Positions 3,463 to 10,702 of a DNA stretch of 57,311 nt are shown here, one piece after another. Every line of letters begins with the position of its first letter. The stretch's first letter is position 1. The notes under the pieces were generated by a model. It saw only the letters and a list, made by a program, of their open reading frames with translations, did no database searches and was not told the DNA's origin. The position numbers and the translations under genes are program-made. Source of the DNA: a bacterium (GTDB lineage Bacteria; Hinthialibacterota; Hinthialibacteria; Hinthialibacterales; Hinthialibacteraceae); NCBI GenBank assembly GCA_016125385.1, contig WGLV01000029.1:1-57311 (forward strand), in the 5' to 3' direction.

Positions 3463-3948
3463 ATGAACGAATCCGAAATTCAGAAAAACGGTCAACGCCA
3501 CATGGCGGCGGCGGTCGATGTTCGCCAGCTGGTTTTGCATTGTGCGCGTCTTGAAAGCGAACTCGGCGCTCAACGCGGCCGGCTGGAAGAACAGGAACGA
3601 CGCCTCATCCAGATGGACGAAGACCGCCATCGCCTCGATTCGCTGGCGGAGTTGGGCCGTGCGGAGCTGGAGCGCCTGCGCGGCGAGACGCTTTCACGCA
3701 TCCGCGCGGCGGCGATGTTCACCGGAGAAAGCGAGCGTCACGGCGCGATCAAAGCCGCGCTGAAAGACGAACAGCTCTCACTGGAGGAGATTCGCCGTTT
3801 TCACCGGTTGGCCACAGCCGAGTTCAACGCGTTATACCCCACTCGGCCCGCCTCAAGAGCGGCTGGAGACGGCGAAACGCTTGAACCGCGCCGCGACTGG
3901 TCGGCGTTTTGCATGAAGCCCGGCGCCGCGATGGGCGAACGGGCGTAA
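3463..3948 (+). CDS. Coiled-coil protein, first gene of phage-type cassette
   Basis: A 161-residue charged protein I do not recognise by family. Residues 20-70 form a strong predicted coiled coil rich in Glu, Arg and Leu (ESELGAQRGRLEEQERRL and onward), followed by a second helical segment to about residue 125 and a Pro/Arg-rich tail. Its size, coiled coil and place before the decoration and capsid genes would suit a scaffolding-type or capsid assembly protein, but that is positional inference. AGAGAGGGA precedes ATG 3463. The next gene starts 44 bases after the stop. Confidence 0.6.
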   Translation: MNESEIQKNGQRHMAAAVDVRQLVLHCARLESELGAQRGRLEEQERRLIQMDEDRHRLDSLAELGRAELERLRGETLSRIRAAAMFTGESERHGAIKAALKDEQLSLEEIRRFHRLATAEFNALYPTRPASRAAGDGETLEPRRDWSAFCMKPGAAMGERA

Positions 3949-3992
3949 TCCGGGGGCTTGCCCCCTATTTTCGAAAGATACAGGAGACGCAG

Positions 3993-4406
3993 ATGACTCG
4001 ATCCGTGGATAACAACGGAATTGGCGCGTTATACGCCACCTTCACCATCAACGAAACCACGCCGGGTACGTATGACCTGAGCGCGCCGGACGTCGGCGAG
4101 GCGGTTGCTTTGATGGGCTCGAACAAAATCGGCAAGGGCGCCGATGGTGGGCGGCTGCTCGGCCGGCTTGAGCACGTCGCGGGCGGTCTCGCCACGGTTC
4201 AGGTGTCGGGCGTGGCCCGATTTGACGTAAACACGGGAGAATCCGCGCCCTCCGTGGGCGACGGCGTCGTCGTCGACGGAGCCGGCAAGGTATACCAGGC
4301 GCCGGCCATTGATGGAGCGAGCGGAGACCCGGCGGGCGGTAACGCCGCGCGGGGCGTGGTGCTTGCCGCCGATGGAACCGCTCACACCTGCGACGTGCTG
4401 CTGTAA
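3993..4406 (+). CDS. Capsid decoration (cement)-like protein
   Basis: A 137-residue, Gly/Ala/Val-rich beta protein. It contains EAVALMGSNKIGKGADGGRL followed by a short beta-barrel-like run (LATVQVSGVARFDV, GDGVVVDGAGKVY) and ARGVVLAADG near the end. This layout resembles small decoration proteins of the DUF2190/capsid-cement type, commonly encoded directly before the major capsid gene, as here. These bind the outer capsid surface and stabilise it. CAGGAGAC precedes ATG 3993, which I prefer over an upstream in-frame ATG at 3909 that lies inside the previous gene. Family assignment is by form and position. Confidence 0.65.
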   Translation: MTRSVDNNGIGALYATFTINETTPGTYDLSAPDVGEAVALMGSNKIGKGADGGRLLGRLEHVAGGLATVQVSGVARFDVNTGESAPSVGDGVVVDGAGKVYQAPAIDGASGDPAGGNAARGVVLAADGTAHTCDVLL

Positions 4407-4442
4407 GCCTGACTCAACGCCACTTAAAAGGAGAACAAACGT

Positions 4443-5507
4443 ATGATCGTTTCTGATGAAAAACTCGCTTCATTGCCCCAGGAATTCCAACGGGCGGGCG
4501 CCATCCCTCTTCATGAAGGCATGTACGCCGAAGCCGCACAGCGCGGGCTCGGGCTGACCGGCTATCTTGAGACGCTCGATCCGTCCGCTTCGGGTGGAGA
4601 ACTCGACGCCTTCGAGCGTCAGCTGGCGCTGGCGGGCATCCGCGTACATGGCGACGACGCCGACGTGATCGACCGCTTTTTCGCCTCGCAGGAGAGCTCG
4701 GTTTTGTTTCCGGAGTTCGTCTCGCGCGCGGTGCAGACCGGTTTCGCCGATTTCAAAAAGCTGAACAAGGTCGTCGCCAACCGCGTCAAGATCGACGACA
4801 ACACCTACAAAAGCGTCTACATGGACGACTCCGTCCTCTCGGAAAGCGACAAGGCGCTGGCGATGGTGGCCGAAGGCGCCGCCCTGCCCAAAATCGAACT
4901 GAAAACCGCCGAACACACCGTCGTCATCAAGAAATACGGCCGCTACCTGCAGGCGACCTACGAAGCCATTCGCCGCAAGCGCGCGTCGGTGATCGCCGTC
5001 TTTTTACGCACCATCGGTCTTCAGATTCAGCGTGACAAGTTTGAAGACGCGATGAATGTCATCGTGAACGGCGACGGCAACAACAACGCCGCCTCCTCCA
5101 TGAACACCGATGTCAGCGGAACGCTTGATTATGATGACATCGCCGAATTCGCGCTGTCGTTCGATCCGTATGAACTCAACGTGCTGGTCTGCAACGCCGC
5201 CACAGCGCTGAAACTGCTCAACGTGACCGAGATCAAAGATCCGGCCATCTCGCGCGAGTTTCAGGTTGAGGGCCAGAGCATTCGCTTGTTCGGGGCCGAA
5301 CTGCTGGTCGACGATTCCGTGGCCGCGAACCAGATCGTCGGTCTCGACAACCGGTTCGCATTGCAGGAGGTCTACGAGACCGGCGTGCTGACCGAGAGCG
5401 AACGCCTCATCCGCCGGCAGATCGAAGGCACGGCGATTTCAGAAACGGCGGGCTTCGCCAAGGCGATCTCCGCCGCCTCCCGGGTGTTGAACGTCACCTG
5501 GTCGTAA
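4443..5507 (+). CDS. Phage major capsid protein (HK97-fold type)
   Basis: A 354-residue protein recognised as a major capsid protein of tailed-phage type. Features: an N-terminal helical arm (about residues 1-75), then SSVLFPEFVSRAV, a beta-rich section with IELKTAEHTVVIKKYGRYLQ, an A-domain-like core containing VIVNGDGNNNAA and LVCNAATALKLL, and a C-terminal stretch ALQEVYETGVLTESERLI seen in this kind of coat protein. The protein would self-assemble into a shell. AAAAGGAG precedes ATG 4443. It directly follows the decoration gene and is followed after 17 bases by a strong intrinsic terminator, so it can be expressed above the later genes. The fold is inferred from pattern, not from a structure search. 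Confidence 0.78.
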   Translation: MIVSDEKLASLPQEFQRAGAIPLHEGMYAEAAQRGLGLTGYLETLDPSASGGELDAFERQLALAGIRVHGDDADVIDRFFASQESSVLFPEFVSRAVQTGFADFKKLNKVVANRVKIDDNTYKSVYMDDSVLSESDKALAMVAEGAALPKIELKTAEHTVVIKKYGRYLQATYEAIRRKRASVIAVFLRTIGLQIQRDKFEDAMNVIVNGDGNNNAASSMNTDVSGTLDYDDIAEFALSFDPYELNVLVCNAATALKLLNVTEIKDPAISREFQVEGQSIRLFGAELLVDDSVAANQIVGLDNRFALQEVYETGVLTESERLIRRQIEGTAISETAGFAKAISAASRVLNVTWS

Positions 5508-5524
5508 TTCGATTCCATCCACGC

Positions 5525-5562
5525 GGGGCGAAGGATCAGTTGATTCTTCGCCCCGATTTTTT
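5525..5562 (+). terminator. Intrinsic terminator directly after the capsid gene
   Basis: GGGGCGAAGGATCA pairs with TGATTCTTCGCCCC (one G-U pair) around a two-base turn, followed by GATTTTTT. The ribosome-binding site AGGAG of the next gene begins right after the T-run, so downstream genes need readthrough or their own promoter. Confidence 0.85.
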
Positions 5563-5574
5563 CAGGAGCCGGTC

Positions 5575-5970
5575 ATGACCTTTGTTACCGAACTGGACGT
5601 GCGCAGGCAGGGCGGGTTGAACGATTTCAGCGCGATTCCACCCGAACGGCTGCGGCAATGCCTGAACGACGCGCACGCGGAAATTCTCGCCGAGACCACG
5701 TTAACCGATGCGTCGCCGATCGATGTGCGCGTCATCCGCGCTGAATCAAAACTCGCGTTGGCCAACCTGATCGGTTCGCTCTCGCTGGCTGAAGCCGCCT
5801 CGGCGCAAGACGTCTCTCTGCCGGGCGTCCGTGTCGACGAGCACGCGGGCGCTGACAGCCGGCGTGTATGGGCTGAACGGTTGCGCGAAGAGGCCTGGTC
5901 GATGCTGCGGCCTTATCTACGGACCCGTCAGCCGAAAAGTCTCCACGCCGTGCGGGAGGCTCAGTCATGA
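5575..5970 (+). CDS. Head-tail connector-like protein
   Basis: A 131-residue mainly helical protein. The N-terminal part, with IPPERLRQCLNDAHAEILAE then VRVIRAESKLALANLIGSL, and the C-terminal RVWAERLREEAWSMLRPYL, resemble small gp6-like or DUF1320-type head-tail connector proteins, which form rings at the capsid vertex and follow the coat gene, as here. AGGAG lies nine bases before ATG 5575, just past the terminator. The last codons overlap the next start by ATGA. Function is by size, helix pattern and position; no portal gene is present for it to bind. Confidence 0.55.
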   Translation: MTFVTELDVRRQGGLNDFSAIPPERLRQCLNDAHAEILAETTLTDASPIDVRVIRAESKLALANLIGSLSLAEAASAQDVSLPGVRVDEHAGADSRRVWAERLREEAWSMLRPYLRTRQPKSLHAVREAQS

Positions 5971-6647
5971 TTCGTCTTGGCGAAATCACATTGCCGGATC
6001 GCGATTTTACCGTTCAGACTGCCACACTGGAGGCGCGCAGCAAAGTGCGGAAAGAGATTCGTCTGCGCGGGTTGATTCGCGGCGCGAATTTGGATGAGTT
6101 CCAGCAACGGGTGGAATCTTTTCGCGGCGCGGTGGAGGCCTTTGACCGGGGTGAGGCCGATCTGTCGCTGGAGACCGGGCGCTTTTACCTGGGGCGGCGG
6201 CGTTCATTCTCGATCGAGCCCAATCTTCAGGCGCGCGTGGCGGCGGTGGATCTATTGATCTGGACGGATGACCGCTATGTGCGAGGCGAGACGTTGTTTC
6301 GCATTCCAGCCCGGATGTACGCAGGCTCCGCGGTGATCGAACTGTTCAGTCAGGGCAACGCCGAGGGGTGGCCACGCGTGATTGTTATTACCAAAACGGA
6401 ACTTCAGTCGCTGACCATCGATTCGGGCCGCGAGCGCTTCATATTAACGCGAACCATCGGCGCGGAGGTCGAGACGGTGATCGATTCCGAAAAACGGACC
6501 GTGACGTGCGGTGGAGAAAACGTGTTCGCCGCGTGTAATGAAACCTTCCCTCTGTCGCGTCCTGGAGCCAATCGCTTTTCCGTCAGCGCCGATCCTTCCA
6601 ATGCAGAGGCGGATGTCGTGCTGGAACACCGCGACGTCTGGGCGTGA
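5967..6647 (+). CDS. Distal-tail (Dit)-like phage tail protein
   Basis: A 226-residue beta-rich protein. An N-terminal segment (MIRLGEITLPDRDFTVQT) and a middle with GRFYLGRRRSFSIEPNLQA match the first half of siphovirus distal tail proteins. The C-terminal half has a galectin-like strand pattern: LTIDSGRERFILT, VTCGGENVFAACNETFPLSR, PGANRFSV and VVLEHRDVWA, comparable to the FPxLxPGxNxI ending common in Dit proteins. Dit forms the hub connecting tail tube and baseplate. Translation is coupled to the preceding gene by ATGA. Two cysteines (GGENVFAAC and nearby) are unusual for this family. No tail tube or tape-measure gene accompanies it. Confidence 0.6.
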   Translation: MIRLGEITLPDRDFTVQTATLEARSKVRKEIRLRGLIRGANLDEFQQRVESFRGAVEAFDRGEADLSLETGRFYLGRRRSFSIEPNLQARVAAVDLLIWTDDRYVRGETLFRIPARMYAGSAVIELFSQGNAEGWPRVIVITKTELQSLTIDSGRERFILTRTIGAEVETVIDSEKRTVTCGGENVFAACNETFPLSRPGANRFSVSADPSNAEADVVLEHRDVWA

Positions 6648-6668
6648 ACCGAACCAGGAGAAAACACA

Positions 6669-7643
6669 ATGCCAACTGGATTATTGATGGATGAGACGAT
6701 GGCCGGCGCTCCGGCGATGGAGATGACTCGAGCCTGTCAAAAACCCGCTTTCACCGGTGATGCGCCCAGTGAAGACGACATGGCGCTGATCAACCGGCTC
6801 GCGGCGTCGCCGTTGCGCGCCGATCAGGTGTATGTGCGCGCCATGCTGATCTGTTCGACGCAGCCGTGCGAGTCTGACGGATGCCAGTTCACGCCCGAGG
6901 CGCTTGAGCAGATCGCTTCGATCATCGTGGGGCGTTCGGTGTTACCGGGGCACAATCGCCAGTCGTTGCCGCTGGCGCGCTTTTTCAAGGCGGAAGTGAC
7001 GCGCGCGCCTGAAGACGGTGAAGCGATGTTCGTCCGCGCCTGGTTCTACTGGCTGCGAGGCGTGTCCGGCGCCAGAGATTTGCTGCTCAACGTTGACGGC
7101 GGCATCTATCGCGAAGTGTCGCTGGCATGGAAGTTCAACGCGTGGCGATGCTCGATCTGCGGCCAGGCGAACGGCCGATGTTCACACCGGCCTGGAGAAG
7201 CGTATCAGGGCGCGCGTTGTTACCGATTGATCGATCGCGTCACCGAGGTGCTCGAAGGATCGCTGGTCTACAAGAGCGCCGACCGGGGGACGAACATCGT
7301 CGGCGCGCGCTCTGCTGTGTTGGAACTCGAAGCTCCGGTGTTGTTGATCGCGAGAGAAGACGACCCGGCGTTTGCGCGTCTCCGCTCGCATGGGCTGCTC
7401 TCCGGCGAGCGTCCGCTGGAGGAGTGGGGCGCGGGGTTGGAGGAAAGCGCCGAAGCGGTGTGGTTTCGCGGCGCCATGGGCGAATCGCTCCCCTCGGTGG
7501 TCGAACGCGCACTGATGGAAGGGGGCGCGTTACTTGTTGATTCACCGTCAGGAGATGATGAACAGCAAAACGTCGCGGTTTGGATTCGAGAGGGCGGAGA
7601 ACTGCGGCGCGCGTCCGGCTGTGAAACGGTGGAGGCGGCGTAA
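6669..7643 (+). CDS. Prohead-protease-like protein with CxxC insert
   Basis: A 324-residue protein whose middle resembles phage capsid maturation proteases of the S78/U35-related kind: VYVRAMLICSTQPCESDGCQ near residue 55, VLPGHNRQSLPLARFFKAEV near 95, then DGGIYREVSLAWKF near 145, and LEGSLVYKSADRGTNIVGAR near 200. Between the last two blocks is CSICGQANGRCSH plus CYRLIDRV, a Cys/His cluster found in one branch of these proteases. GHN and the following REVS would be candidate active-site positions; I cannot confirm the full catalytic set. The C-terminal 100 residues are unlike the family. It lies downstream of the coat and tail-like genes rather than before the coat gene. AGGAG precedes ATG 6669. 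Confidence 0.6.
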   Translation: MPTGLLMDETMAGAPAMEMTRACQKPAFTGDAPSEDDMALINRLAASPLRADQVYVRAMLICSTQPCESDGCQFTPEALEQIASIIVGRSVLPGHNRQSLPLARFFKAEVTRAPEDGEAMFVRAWFYWLRGVSGARDLLLNVDGGIYREVSLAWKFNAWRCSICGQANGRCSHRPGEAYQGARCYRLIDRVTEVLEGSLVYKSADRGTNIVGARSAVLELEAPVLLIAREDDPAFARLRSHGLLSGERPLEEWGAGLEESAEAVWFRGAMGESLPSVVERALMEGGALLVDSPSGDDEQQNVAVWIREGGELRRASGCETVEAA

Positions 7644-8443
7644 TGACGGTCTATGGCAAATACGATCCGCAAAACGCGGGTAATTCGTCGTCGCTGTTCG
7701 TTTACAAAGAGGTCCCCGTCACGTCGGCTAAGTTGAATCGATGGAACGCGAATCTGGAGGCGGGCTTCGAACTGTTGCATGCCGTCTGTTCGGCGTTATT
7801 CACCCGCGGCCAGGCGGCGGTAATCGCCACCAGCGGAGGCGATGCGTTGAAAGTGAGCGCGCTCCATGAGCCCGCGTTGTGCGTACGCGTCGCGCCCGGC
7901 TGGGCGGTGTTGGACGGAGGTTTCGCGGGCCTCGCCGAGGAGACGGTGCTCCCGGCGGCGGGAGAAATCGCCCCTCCTGTCATCCAGCCGCGCATCGATT
8001 CCATCGTGCTGCTGGTCAGCGGCGATCCGGCTGTGATCGCGGGAGCGGAATCGCCCGCGCCCGCCGCGCCGGACGTGCCTGAAGGCGCTCTTGAACTGGC
8101 GAGGGCGTATCATCGCGCCGGTTCGACGCAAGTGCTTAATGATGACGATGGCGTGAATTCATACCTCATTGATGTGCGCCCGAAGATGGTGATGGGCGAT
8201 GCGCATCGCCACGCGGAAGACCTCGTTCCAGTCGAATCCACCGATGGGGCGCGAACGATGTTTTCGACCGCGCACGTGTATCGCGACGGATCGCTTCACG
8301 TTCATCTGAACGGCGTTCGCCAGCAGGCGGGCGTCGATTACGCCGAAGACGCCGGGCGCAGATCGTATACCTTCTTTTCACCGCCGCCCGCGCAATCCCG
8401 CTTGCAGCATGACTATCTGATTGAATACGAAATCGCCGAGTAA
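7643..8443 (+). CDS. Tail-fibre-like protein
   Basis: A 266-residue protein. The first 140 residues include LNRWNANLEAGFELLHAV and VAPGWAVLDGGFAGLAEET, a baseplate/fibre-type segment, and the linker is Ala/Pro-rich. The last 70 residues, FSTAHVYRDGSLHVHLNGVR then GVDYAED and SRLQHDYLIEYEI, match a small beta domain repeated in many phage tail fibres (GTLxVYLNGxRxxxGxDYxE). KMVMGDAHRHAEDL provides a His-rich turn before it. The protein therefore probably contacts a surface ligand. Its start overlaps the previous stop (TAATG). No signal peptide is seen, in contrast to the next gene. Confidence 0.6.
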   Translation: MTVYGKYDPQNAGNSSSLFVYKEVPVTSAKLNRWNANLEAGFELLHAVCSALFTRGQAAVIATSGGDALKVSALHEPALCVRVAPGWAVLDGGFAGLAEETVLPAAGEIAPPVIQPRIDSIVLLVSGDPAVIAGAESPAPAAPDVPEGALELARAYHRAGSTQVLNDDDGVNSYLIDVRPKMVMGDAHRHAEDLVPVESTDGARTMFSTAHVYRDGSLHVHLNGVRQQAGVDYAEDAGRRSYTFFSPPPAQSRLQHDYLIEYEIAE

Positions 8444-8452
8444 GGAGCCGCT

Positions 8453-9091
8453 ATGAAAACTCGTTGGATTCTCTACGCCGTTATGCTGGCGCTCGCATCC
8501 GGCGCGGCTGTATCGCAAACTCTGATCGGCCCGAGTCAGATCGAAGACGTGTTTCTCCGTAAAAGCGGGGGAAGCGTATTCGGCGACGTCGCCGCCGCGA
8601 CGTCCACCATTCAGGCCGCGACGCTCGATCTGCCGGGCGATGACGGCGGCGTATTTACAATTCTGCGCGACGGGCCCTTGTCGGTGCTGCGTTCCGATCG
8701 TGACATTTATATCGATCCGACCAACGACGGCGTTGCGGGCGGGCAGATCATCCCCGCCACGGTGATGAAATTTCCCGAAGCGCTGGGCGACAAGATCCGC
8801 TTCTACAGTACGTCGTACAAAATCGGCGTTTCGCCCTTTGATCTCGATATCACTTCCGACCGGAACATCCGGTTTCACTCCGACACGGTGGAAGACCTGA
8901 TGGTCATCGCGGGCGACGAGGGCGACGTGACGGTCAAGAACAATCTGACGGTCGGAAACCTGCTTCAGTTGAAGGTGGTGAACGCGCTGCCCTCGGCTGG
9001 CGTGGGCCAGATTATCTATCTCGATCACACCAGCGATGACGGTCAGGACGGCGTCTACGTCATGACCGGCGCCGGTTGGCAAAAACTGTGA
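8453..9091 (+). CDS. Exported fibre-like protein
   Basis: A 212-residue protein beginning with a clear Sec signal peptide, MKTRWILYAVMLALASGAAV then S, with probable cleavage before QTLIGPSQ. The mature part has the short repetitive beta strands of tail-fibre shafts: SDRDIYIDPTNDG, MKFPEALGDKIRFYSTSYKI, DLDITSDRNIRFHSD, VTVKNNLTVGNLLQLK, and ends GVYVMTGAGWQKL. A signal peptide on a virion-type protein is unusual because phage fibres assemble in the cytoplasm. The protein may act in the periplasm or at the cell surface. AAGGAG lies before ATG 8453, ten bases after the previous gene. Confidence 0.6.
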   Translation: MKTRWILYAVMLALASGAAVSQTLIGPSQIEDVFLRKSGGSVFGDVAAATSTIQAATLDLPGDDGGVFTILRDGPLSVLRSDRDIYIDPTNDGVAGGQIIPATVMKFPEALGDKIRFYSTSYKIGVSPFDLDITSDRNIRFHSDTVEDLMVIAGDEGDVTVKNNLTVGNLLQLKVVNALPSAGVGQIIYLDHTSDDGQDGVYVMTGAGWQKL

Positions 9092-9101
9092 GGACGCCGC
9101 C

Positions 9102-9353
9102 ATGCGTGATTCTGAATTGCGGGCGGCGAGAGATTACGCCGAGTTGAAGGCGTCTATCGAGCGGATTCGCGCCAAACTCGAATCGGTCGAATCGATGATG
9201 CTTTACACGCGGCAGTCGCTCGACGATCTCAATAAGCAATATCAGAAAAGCCGCGTTGACCTGGCGGGCGTTAAAACCAGTGCGGCCATCTTCGGCGCGC
9301 TGACCGGCAGCCTGATGGCGGCGTTGTTCCGCTGGGCGCTGGGCGGACTGTGA
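9102..9353 (+). CDS. XhlA-like coiled-coil membrane protein
   Basis: An 83-residue protein with an N-terminal coiled coil (about residues 5-50: YAELKASIERIRAKLESVE, DDLNKQYQKSRVDL) and one C-terminal transmembrane helix (AAIFGALTGSLMAALFRWAL). This is the layout of XhlA-type holin-associated proteins, which work with holins in phage lysis or release. No lysin or second holin is recognised next to it. It could instead anchor the exported neighbours to the membrane. GAGGACG precedes ATG 9102. Confidence 0.5.
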   Translation: MRDSELRAARDYAELKASIERIRAKLESVESMMLYTRQSLDDLNKQYQKSRVDLAGVKTSAAIFGALTGSLMAALFRWALGGL

Positions 9354-9377
9354 TGAACCTGAACCGAGGAGATTTCA

Positions 9378-10169
9378 ATGAAACGAACGATTCTCATTCC
9401 CTGGCTGTTTCTGGCCGCGTTGAGCGGTATGGCGCAGACGTACCTGGGCGTATTTGAAGAAGGCGATGAAGCGCCTTTTCTGGTCACCGCTTCCGATCCT
9501 GAAAGCGGAAATCCCGTCACGCCGGAGAACATGAGTTACTCCATCGTGTTCGGCGGCGCGGAGATCGCCCAGGGCGGGTTGACCGAACTGCGCACCGGCG
9601 TGGCGCTGGGCGTCGTCTCCACCACGGGATTCACGGCGGGGCCGTATGTGATTCTGGTATCAGGCCAGATCGGCGGCGTAACCGCGTATACCCACAAGTC
9701 GTTTACGCTGGCCGAGGCGGGCGAAGGGCTGCGCGGGATCGCCCGCGAAACGGCGGGGCTGAACGGGCTGACGCCGCTGACCGAAGACGTGTATCTGCCG
9801 TATTACGCGTACACCATTTCTCAACTCTCAGGCCGCATTGAAGCGGCCACGAGCCAACTTTCTGATGAAGTCGAGCCCGCCGCGCTTCATGCCGAAATCA
9901 GCGCGCGCGAACTCTCGAGGGCCCGGCTATGGTACGCGCAGAGCGCGATTGAAAGCGCGTCGCGCAGCGTCCCCGCCGATATGCCGTCACACATGGAGAT
10001 TCAGCTCGCTTCGCCCGGTGACGATTCGTTTTCCTCTCCGTTGGAAACGTTTTATCGAATCTATACATACACCGATGCGCTGAACGCCTCCAAACCGTCC
10101 AGTGAGACGCGTTCGGTCACGCCGCCCGCTGACGGCGCGTTTTATCTCGATCCCGATGTGGACTGGTAA
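9378..10169 (+). CDS. Exported protein of phage-type cassette, unknown function
   Basis: A 263-residue protein with a Sec signal peptide (MKRTILIPWLFLAALSGMA, probable cleavage before QTYLGV). Residues 25-120 are a beta-rich domain resembling the N-terminal part of baseplate upper proteins (DEAPFLVTASDPESGNPVTP, TGFTAGPYVILVSGQIGG). Residues 120-210 are helical (YTISQLSGRIEAATSQLSD), and the tail contains TPPADGAFYLDPDVDW. I do not recognise a known family over the whole length. It is the second gene in this block with an export signal, and its mature start QT resembles that of the first. GAGGAG precedes ATG 9378. Confidence 0.55.
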   Translation: MKRTILIPWLFLAALSGMAQTYLGVFEEGDEAPFLVTASDPESGNPVTPENMSYSIVFGGAEIAQGGLTELRTGVALGVVSTTGFTAGPYVILVSGQIGGVTAYTHKSFTLAEAGEGLRGIARETAGLNGLTPLTEDVYLPYYAYTISQLSGRIEAATSQLSDEVEPAALHAEISARELSRARLWYAQSAIESASRSVPADMPSHMEIQLASPGDDSFSSPLETFYRIYTYTDALNASKPSSETRSVTPPADGAFYLDPDVDW

Positions 10170-10181
10170 GGAGCGCGCGGC

Positions 10182-10385
10182 ATGACGCGGGAAAGTGGTG
10201 AAAGTATGCAACTCAATGATGACCTGATTCTGGGCCGGAGCGGGCGCGCAACCGGCGTTGTATGGACCGGCGCGCGCGGCGGTCAGGGGCGCTTTTATCA
10301 GATTCAGCTGAGAGTGACCATCGCCGGGCGAATTCCCGTCCGGGTCCGGTTCCCCGGTGGAGCGCGGAAGGAGATCGAACGATGA
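10182..10385 (+). CDS. Small protein of phage-type cassette, unknown
   Basis: A 67-residue basic protein with no family I recognise. It contains LNDDLILGRSGRATGVVW followed by beta strands FYQIQLRVTIAGRIPVRV. AAGGAG lies eight bases before ATG 10182, supporting that start; a second ATG at 10206 has a weaker site. Its stop overlaps the next start (ATGA), so it is translated together with the BppU-like gene, which supports it as a real gene despite its size. Confidence 0.5.
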   Translation: MTRESGESMQLNDDLILGRSGRATGVVWTGARGGQGRFYQIQLRVTIAGRIPVRVRFPGGARKEIER

Positions 10386-10702
10386 ACGCGCCGATTCAAC
10401 TCAACCAACATGACGCGGGCGTGAAACTGGCGTTCACCTGCGTGAATGAAAAAGGCGAACCGATCGATCTGACCGGGCTCGAAGTCGATTTTACCCTCTA
10501 TTTCGATGGAACCGCCGTCAACGAAGGCCGCACCCGGTGTATGAAAACCGATGCGCCGATGGGTGTGGCCGAGTATACCGTGACCGGCGATGACACCGAC
10601 GCCGCGGGCCTTTTGTATGGTAAACTGCGGCTTGAACAGGGTGCCGAATACGTCCGCAATATTGGCTCGATTCCCCTGCTTGTCGAAGCTGATTCGGGAT
10701 AG
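10382..10702 (+). CDS. BppU-N-like baseplate domain protein
   Basis: A 106-residue single-domain protein resembling the N-terminal domain of phage baseplate upper protein BppU: LNQHDAGVKLAFTCVNEKGE then PIDLTGLEVDFTLYF, MGVAEYTVTGDDTDAAG and LYGKLRLEQGAEYV. In phages this Ig-like domain anchors receptor-binding modules to the baseplate; here it stands alone without the C-terminal part. It is the last gene of the cassette and is coupled to the previous one by ATGA. No terminator is obvious before purC, which starts 113 bases later. Confidence 0.65.
   Translation: MNAPIQLNQHDAGVKLAFTCVNEKGEPIDLTGLEVDFTLYFDGTAVNEGRTRCMKTDAPMGVAEYTVTGDDTDAAGLLYGKLRLEQGAEYVRNIGSIPLLVEADSG

Follow-up and report, generated by a model that had tools for sequence, protein, structure and literature searches.

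The window analyzed here is a contig of 57,311 nucleotides (WGLV01000029.1 of assembly GCA_016125385.1; contig C15 of genome G000) from a bacterium of Candidatus Hinthialibacterota, whose 5.5 Mb draft genome consists of 77 contigs and is 95.8% complete. At positions 3463-10702 the window carries a cassette of phage structural genes (Table 1), whose origin and likely function are considered below. An initial annotation, made from the window's letters, had described twelve intact, close-packed rightward genes with host-like base use, and both descriptions held: every open reading frame is unbroken and on the + strand, the intergenic gaps range from -4 to +67 bp, and the G+C content at third codon positions is 0.64-0.78 in the cassette versus 0.75-0.76 in the two host genes, NDH-2 (left) and purC (right), that directly flank it. 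Comparisons were made within the 14 genomes of the class (G000 and relatives such as G001), which include families f1, f2, f4, and f5.

Table 1. Genes and features of the cassette at 3463-10702 of the window
Feature	Position	Strand	Evidence and remarks
g1, coiled-coil protein, 161 aa	3463..3948	+	First gene of cassette; homologues at same place in f1 and f2, 31-47% identity
g2, decoration-like head protein, 137 aa	3993..4406	+	phrog_4588 virion structural protein, E 3e-5; 47-74% identity class-wide
g3, major capsid protein, 354 aa	4443..5507	+	phrog_3922, E 2e-80; Pfam Phage_capsid_4; dN/dS 0.05
Strong stem-loop and T-run	5524..5555	+	14 bp stem, directly 3' of capsid gene
g4, connector-like protein, 131 aa	5575..5970	+	Position; conserved in class and Zixibacteriota; no database match
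g5, Dit-like distal-tail protein, 226 aa	5967..6647	+	Pfam SPP1_Dit above cut-off; phrog_33 Dit, E 3.5e-4
g6, prohead-protease-like protein with zinc knuckle, 324 aa	6669..7643	+	Invariant H95, S151, E196; C161-C164-C171-H173
g7, virion structural protein, 266 aa	7643..8443	+	phrog_3398, E 2.5e-4; 42-57% identity class-wide
g8, fibre-like protein, Sec-type N-terminal signal, 212 aa	8453..9091	+	Signal-like N-terminus in 9/9 f1/f2 homologues and in f4 counterparts
g9, XhlA-like coiled coil, C-terminal hydrophobic stretch, 83 aa	9102..9353	+	Sequence; dN/dS 0.016
g10, secreted-type protein, N-terminal signal, 263 aa	9378..10169	+	Signal-like N-terminus in 4/4 homologues found
g11, small protein, 67 aa	10182..10385	+	Conserved in G001 and G005; 4 bp overlap with g12
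g12, BppU N-terminal-domain-like baseplate protein, 106 aa	10382..10702	+	Pfam BppU_N, 24.3 bits (cut-off 23.1); dN/dS 0.06

The identity of the major capsid protein is certain, its Pfam match also lying above the cut-off, and profile matches likewise support the Dit-like, BppU-like (just above cut-off), and decoration-like assignments. The protease-like call for g6 is favored by its invariant residues and by weak fold matches to herpes proteases but has no Pfam support, and Foldseek returned nothing significant (herpes proteases at E 0.6-1.2 at best); g6 homologues in Zixibacteriota and Clostridia are placed between the portal/terminase genes and the capsid gene. The connector-like call for g4 draws on the gene's place in the cassette and on its conserved counterparts in Zixibacteriota but lacks a database match, and the XhlA-like call for g9 is based on a coiled coil and the hydrophobic stretch at the C-terminus; g9-like genes in f4 adjoin endolysin and holin-like genes. 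The first gene evolves fast (ratio of nonsynonymous to synonymous substitution rates [dN/dS] 0.26), g2 more likely starts at 3993 than at 3909, and the AlphaFold model of g7 (pLDDT 45) was too poor for use. Sec-type signals, judged by eye and hydropathy rather than by SignalP, are lacking in g5, g7, and g12, unlike g8 and g10; signal-bearing proteins also occur downstream in Zixibacteriota elements and in a virus-like relative, L227. The capsid stop codon is followed by a comparably long hairpin in approximately 9 of 13 class genomes, the sequences being unlike but the pairing kept, and this stem-loop is possibly an attenuator that raises the capsid dose.

The cassette is not confined to one strain, as the capsid gene is present, in single copy, in 13 of the 14 class genomes (the exception is G009), and capsid identity drops as kinship becomes more distant. 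The synteny check proposed with the initial annotation gave a clear answer: all twelve genes are found in identical order in the nearest relative, far above chance. The order is conserved more widely, with g1 and g8-g12 found by sequence only in nearer relatives. Trees of RpoB and the capsid protein are concordant on every well-supported clade, namely (G000, G001), (G002, G003), f2, and f4; a concatenated tree is also concordant, with conflicts at weak nodes only, and Mantel r versus RpoB was 0.53-0.97. Nei-Gojobori estimates for G006 and G008, which belong to one genus, gave dN/dS values of 0.016-0.26 across the cassette genes and 0.04 for the portal gene described below, with dS matching that of rpoB, which indicates purifying selection. 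The cassette thereby shows the pattern expected of a gene transfer agent (GTA): phage structural genes that are single copy, vertically inherited with the host, and under purifying selection.

The initial annotation found no terminase, portal, or tape-measure gene. This is true of the block, but elsewhere G000 does encode a portal and a probable tail hub, both invisible from the window. In f4 and f5, a Mu-type portal gene lies immediately upstream of the cassette; with this portal as the query, one portal each was found in 12 of 14 genomes (in G000 at C12:165558-166769), and in the f1 and f2 genomes the portal gene stands alone among host genes. Similarly, the f4 and f5 genomes encode, downstream of the cassette, a protein of 370-400 aa whose f1 and f2 homologue is single copy and stands alone; homologues were found in 13 of 14 genomes (in G000 at C12:97178-98221). 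This protein is probably the tail hub, because one member is YqbQ-like (E 6e-4) and a full-length hhalign alignment pairs the candidate with the XkdQ-like hub found in clostridial elements (E 8e-6, probability 65%). PDB profile searches with the hub and the capsid gave no credible match. Capsid, portal, and hub are jointly missing from G009.

A terminase was found in ten relatives of G000. In seven f1/f2 genomes it is the product of a lone gene, ∼550 aa long, with intact, conserved Walker and nuclease motifs; that of G001, the sister of G000, is on a long branch. In f4, a terminase of a different family closes a compact cluster that runs portal, unknown, decoration, capsid, connector, Dit, protease, g7, signal-bearing fibre, XhlA-like, endolysin (seen in G010), holin-like, hub, a small unknown protein, and terminase; in G013, the f4-type cluster is split over contigs. 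The endolysin (phrog_894, E 3.5e-18) and holin-like genes were found only in f4, and the window cassette has the XhlA-like gene. Terminase-like matches in G007:C682, G005:C39, G009, G012:C22, and G013:C137 were rejected as being outside the conserved terminase family or on short phage-like contigs. The G006 draft contains two terminase copies that are 91% identical (C16 and C74), the second of which is 99.8% identical to that of G007 and may represent strain mixture or contamination.

With the genes for capsid, decoration protein, and the connector-like, Dit-like, protease-like, and fibre-like proteins together in the window, portal and hub as lone genes elsewhere in G000, and a terminase added by the relatives, we consider it likely that a dispersed, domesticated, vertically inherited GTA-like element of Ca. 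Hinthialibacterota has its main structural locus in this block. A domesticated device such as a GTA remnant was among the proposals of the initial annotation, and it is strongly supported by single copy, class-wide vertical descent, purifying selection, and the finding that the missing genes (terminase, portal, and tape measure) do not sit together in one prophage elsewhere. The products of the dispersed genes would build a small HK97-type head with a portal, a connector, and a Dit/hub plug. In response to a host signal, a few cells would transcribe the loci; the stem-loop behind the capsid gene would provide a capsid surplus, the protease-like g6 would mature the head, and the terminase would package host DNA. 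The particles would then be set free by lysis genes, of which the window has the XhlA-like one and relatives the endolysin and holin-like ones, and the fibres would direct them to kin. Because neither the cassette nor the f4 cluster showed a gene for a tube, sheath, or tape measure, the particle is probably short-tailed and, judging from these gene sets, apparently tubeless; the tail is probably a reduced one, since a sheath is present in L227, the closest of the virus-like relatives found.

Several observations weigh against this interpretation. Neither particles nor packaged DNA nor a transfer event has been observed. The hub, protease, and connector assignments, made from sequence, are weak. 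No query detected a terminase in G000, and we thus call the element GTA-like rather than a GTA. In G002 (loci L183, L184, and L223), the terminase is a C-terminal stump at two contig ends and the hub has an internal stop, with capsid and portal intact; G002 is apparently a lineage that is losing the system, with decay in places, and its stump shows that terminase loss does happen. GTA-type working is suggested by the relatives; the particle of the window's own species may no longer package DNA, or the terminase gene may be missing from the draft rather than from the species.

The undetected terminase in G000 and the export signals on the fibre-like g8 and g10 would also fit a domesticated phage-derived particle that transfers no DNA. 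It could be a shell, empty or loaded with protein, or else a bacteriocin-like or adhesive device in which the exported fibre-like proteins do the work. However, portal and hub are kept, most relatives keep a terminase with intact motifs, and an unfilled shell would have small use for a portal, so we regard this explanation as unlikely. The protein-filled shell suggested by the initial annotation is less likely on the same grounds, although the lack of a detected terminase in G000 leaves it as a reading for the window's species. It is also conceivable, though decidedly improbable, that the GTA has recently become non-functional in this species, the motor having been lost too recently for its other loci to have decayed. 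The absent terminase of G000, the stump and interrupted hub of G002, and the long branch of the terminase in sister G001 are in keeping with such a loss, but the cassette genes, portal, and hub of G000 are all intact, and in a draft that is 95.8% complete, the terminase gene may merely be missing.

A decaying prophage, or separate phage infections genome by genome, would account for the phage-like proteins, and tailed virus-like relatives are known, but we consider this very improbable: neither decay nor repeated infection would yield single copies across the class, host-congruent trees, and low dN/dS, and the dispersed lone genes and host-like composition contradict it as well. In particular, the initial annotation's prophage half, with its left arm lost in an AT-rich gap, does not survive comparison, as the cassette begins alike in relatives whose flanks are quite different, and the portal and hub that it lacks each stand alone elsewhere in the genome. 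A capsid-forming phage satellite (cf-PICI type) using helper-phage tails would explain head genes without a tail tube or tape measure, but it is scarcely tenable given the dispersed loci, the vertical descent, the element's own Dit, hub, and fibre genes, and the directly adjoining NDH-2 and purC; neither the block nor the surroundings of the lone portal, hub, and terminase genes showed an integrase, replication, or repressor gene. A tailocin or contractile injection system was rejected because a capsid is present and phrog and Pfam profile searches found no tail tube or sheath in the block, and an encapsulin-type shell because portal, Dit-like, protease-like, and hub genes are co-inherited.

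The capsid belongs to a wider family. A genome scan identified at least 535 related capsids, and the best 80 outside the class were mainly from Zixibacteriota and gut Clostridia. In Zixibacteriota (searched with G022 as the center), 112 of 132 genomes (73 of 78 high-quality genomes) carry the capsid, nearly always once, with ∼60-83% identity. The element there (L074, L138, G022, and others) runs portal-TerL-protease-decoration-capsid-BNR-like-connector-secreted proteins. Its portal, protease-like, decoration, capsid, and connector proteins are homologous to those described here, and signal-bearing proteins lie downstream; it differs in having terminase and portal inside the cluster and an extra BNR-like protein of 480 aa, and its capsid is ∼35-39% identical. 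Gut Clostridia have TerS-TerL-portal-protease-decoration-capsid cassettes, with capsids 36-44% identical to this capsid family. In three of these (L079, L098, and L032), the cassette stops three genes past the capsid, with host genes directly flanking; in L142, the same head genes are followed by a contractile-type tail. At a further locus (L029, G020:C18), outward-facing host-type genes separate the decoration homologue from the capsid homologue, and 15.8 kb contain no further phage gene; this is possibly another dispersed relic. An IMG/VR capsid scan with a single protein gave no match, and one with the capsid alignment gave 104 relatives. Among these, L227 has a capsid 43% identical to ours, Dit and connector homologues, and signal-bearing genes between capsid and connector, but it is contractile (tail sheath phrog_23, E 1e-64) and thus exemplifies the kind of tailed particle with which such a reduction could have started. 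Between its capsid and connector genes lie three consecutive genes (L227:4715-9511) whose products (122, 265, and 1205 aa) have signal-peptide-like N-termini, which is unusual among phage structural genes.

Comparison with known GTAs shows both parallels and differences. RcGTA has a tail with a tube and a tape measure, neither of which was seen in the present element, and no sequence link between the two was seen. RcGTA and RcGTA-like elements of Alphaproteobacteria do, however, share with it a domesticated, vertically inherited, multi-locus organization (PMC11841831), and GTAs are often encoded at several loci, some with one or two genes (PMC11841831). The recently described FpGTA of Faecalibacterium (Nat Commun, January 2026, PMC12946183) comprises two operons ∼125 kb apart with a host-wide distribution, has portal, capsid, fibre, holin, and endolysin genes, and forms particles with ∼40 nm heads and ∼9 kb of host DNA that show no visible tail (tailless or short-tailed). 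Split loci are common to both, and cassettes with related capsids occur in the same gut Clostridia families (the comparison was made with those cassettes); L079, L098, and L032 may be FpGTA-like elements. In contrast, the FpGTA terminase adjoins the capsid gene in one operon, whereas portal, hub, and terminase are lone genes here. GTAs are known from few lineages, and their prevalence has been called unknown since they resemble remnant phages (PMC11841831). Among the open-licence papers searched, a set that lacks most subscription papers, none described such an element in Zixibacteriota or Omnitrophota/Hinthialibacterota.

A broader proposal, which we offer tentatively and hold to be doubtful, is that Hinthialibacterota and Zixibacteriota share an ancient GTA lineage that forms tubeless particles from dispersed genes, with Sec-exported fibre-like proteins that would dock on the particle outside the cell or act at the cell surface as a self-made kin receptor; some species would have lost the motor and retained the particle for a different purpose. 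Simple tests (single copy, host-congruent trees, dN/dS, and lone portal and hub genes) have revealed a class-wide GTA candidate, with a related capsid near-universal in a second phylum, Zixibacteriota, and they provide a search recipe for further such systems. Particle reduction, with the tube lost and later the motor, becomes directly amenable to study. If the interpretation is true, DNA-swapping particles would be a basic trait across whole uncultured phyla.

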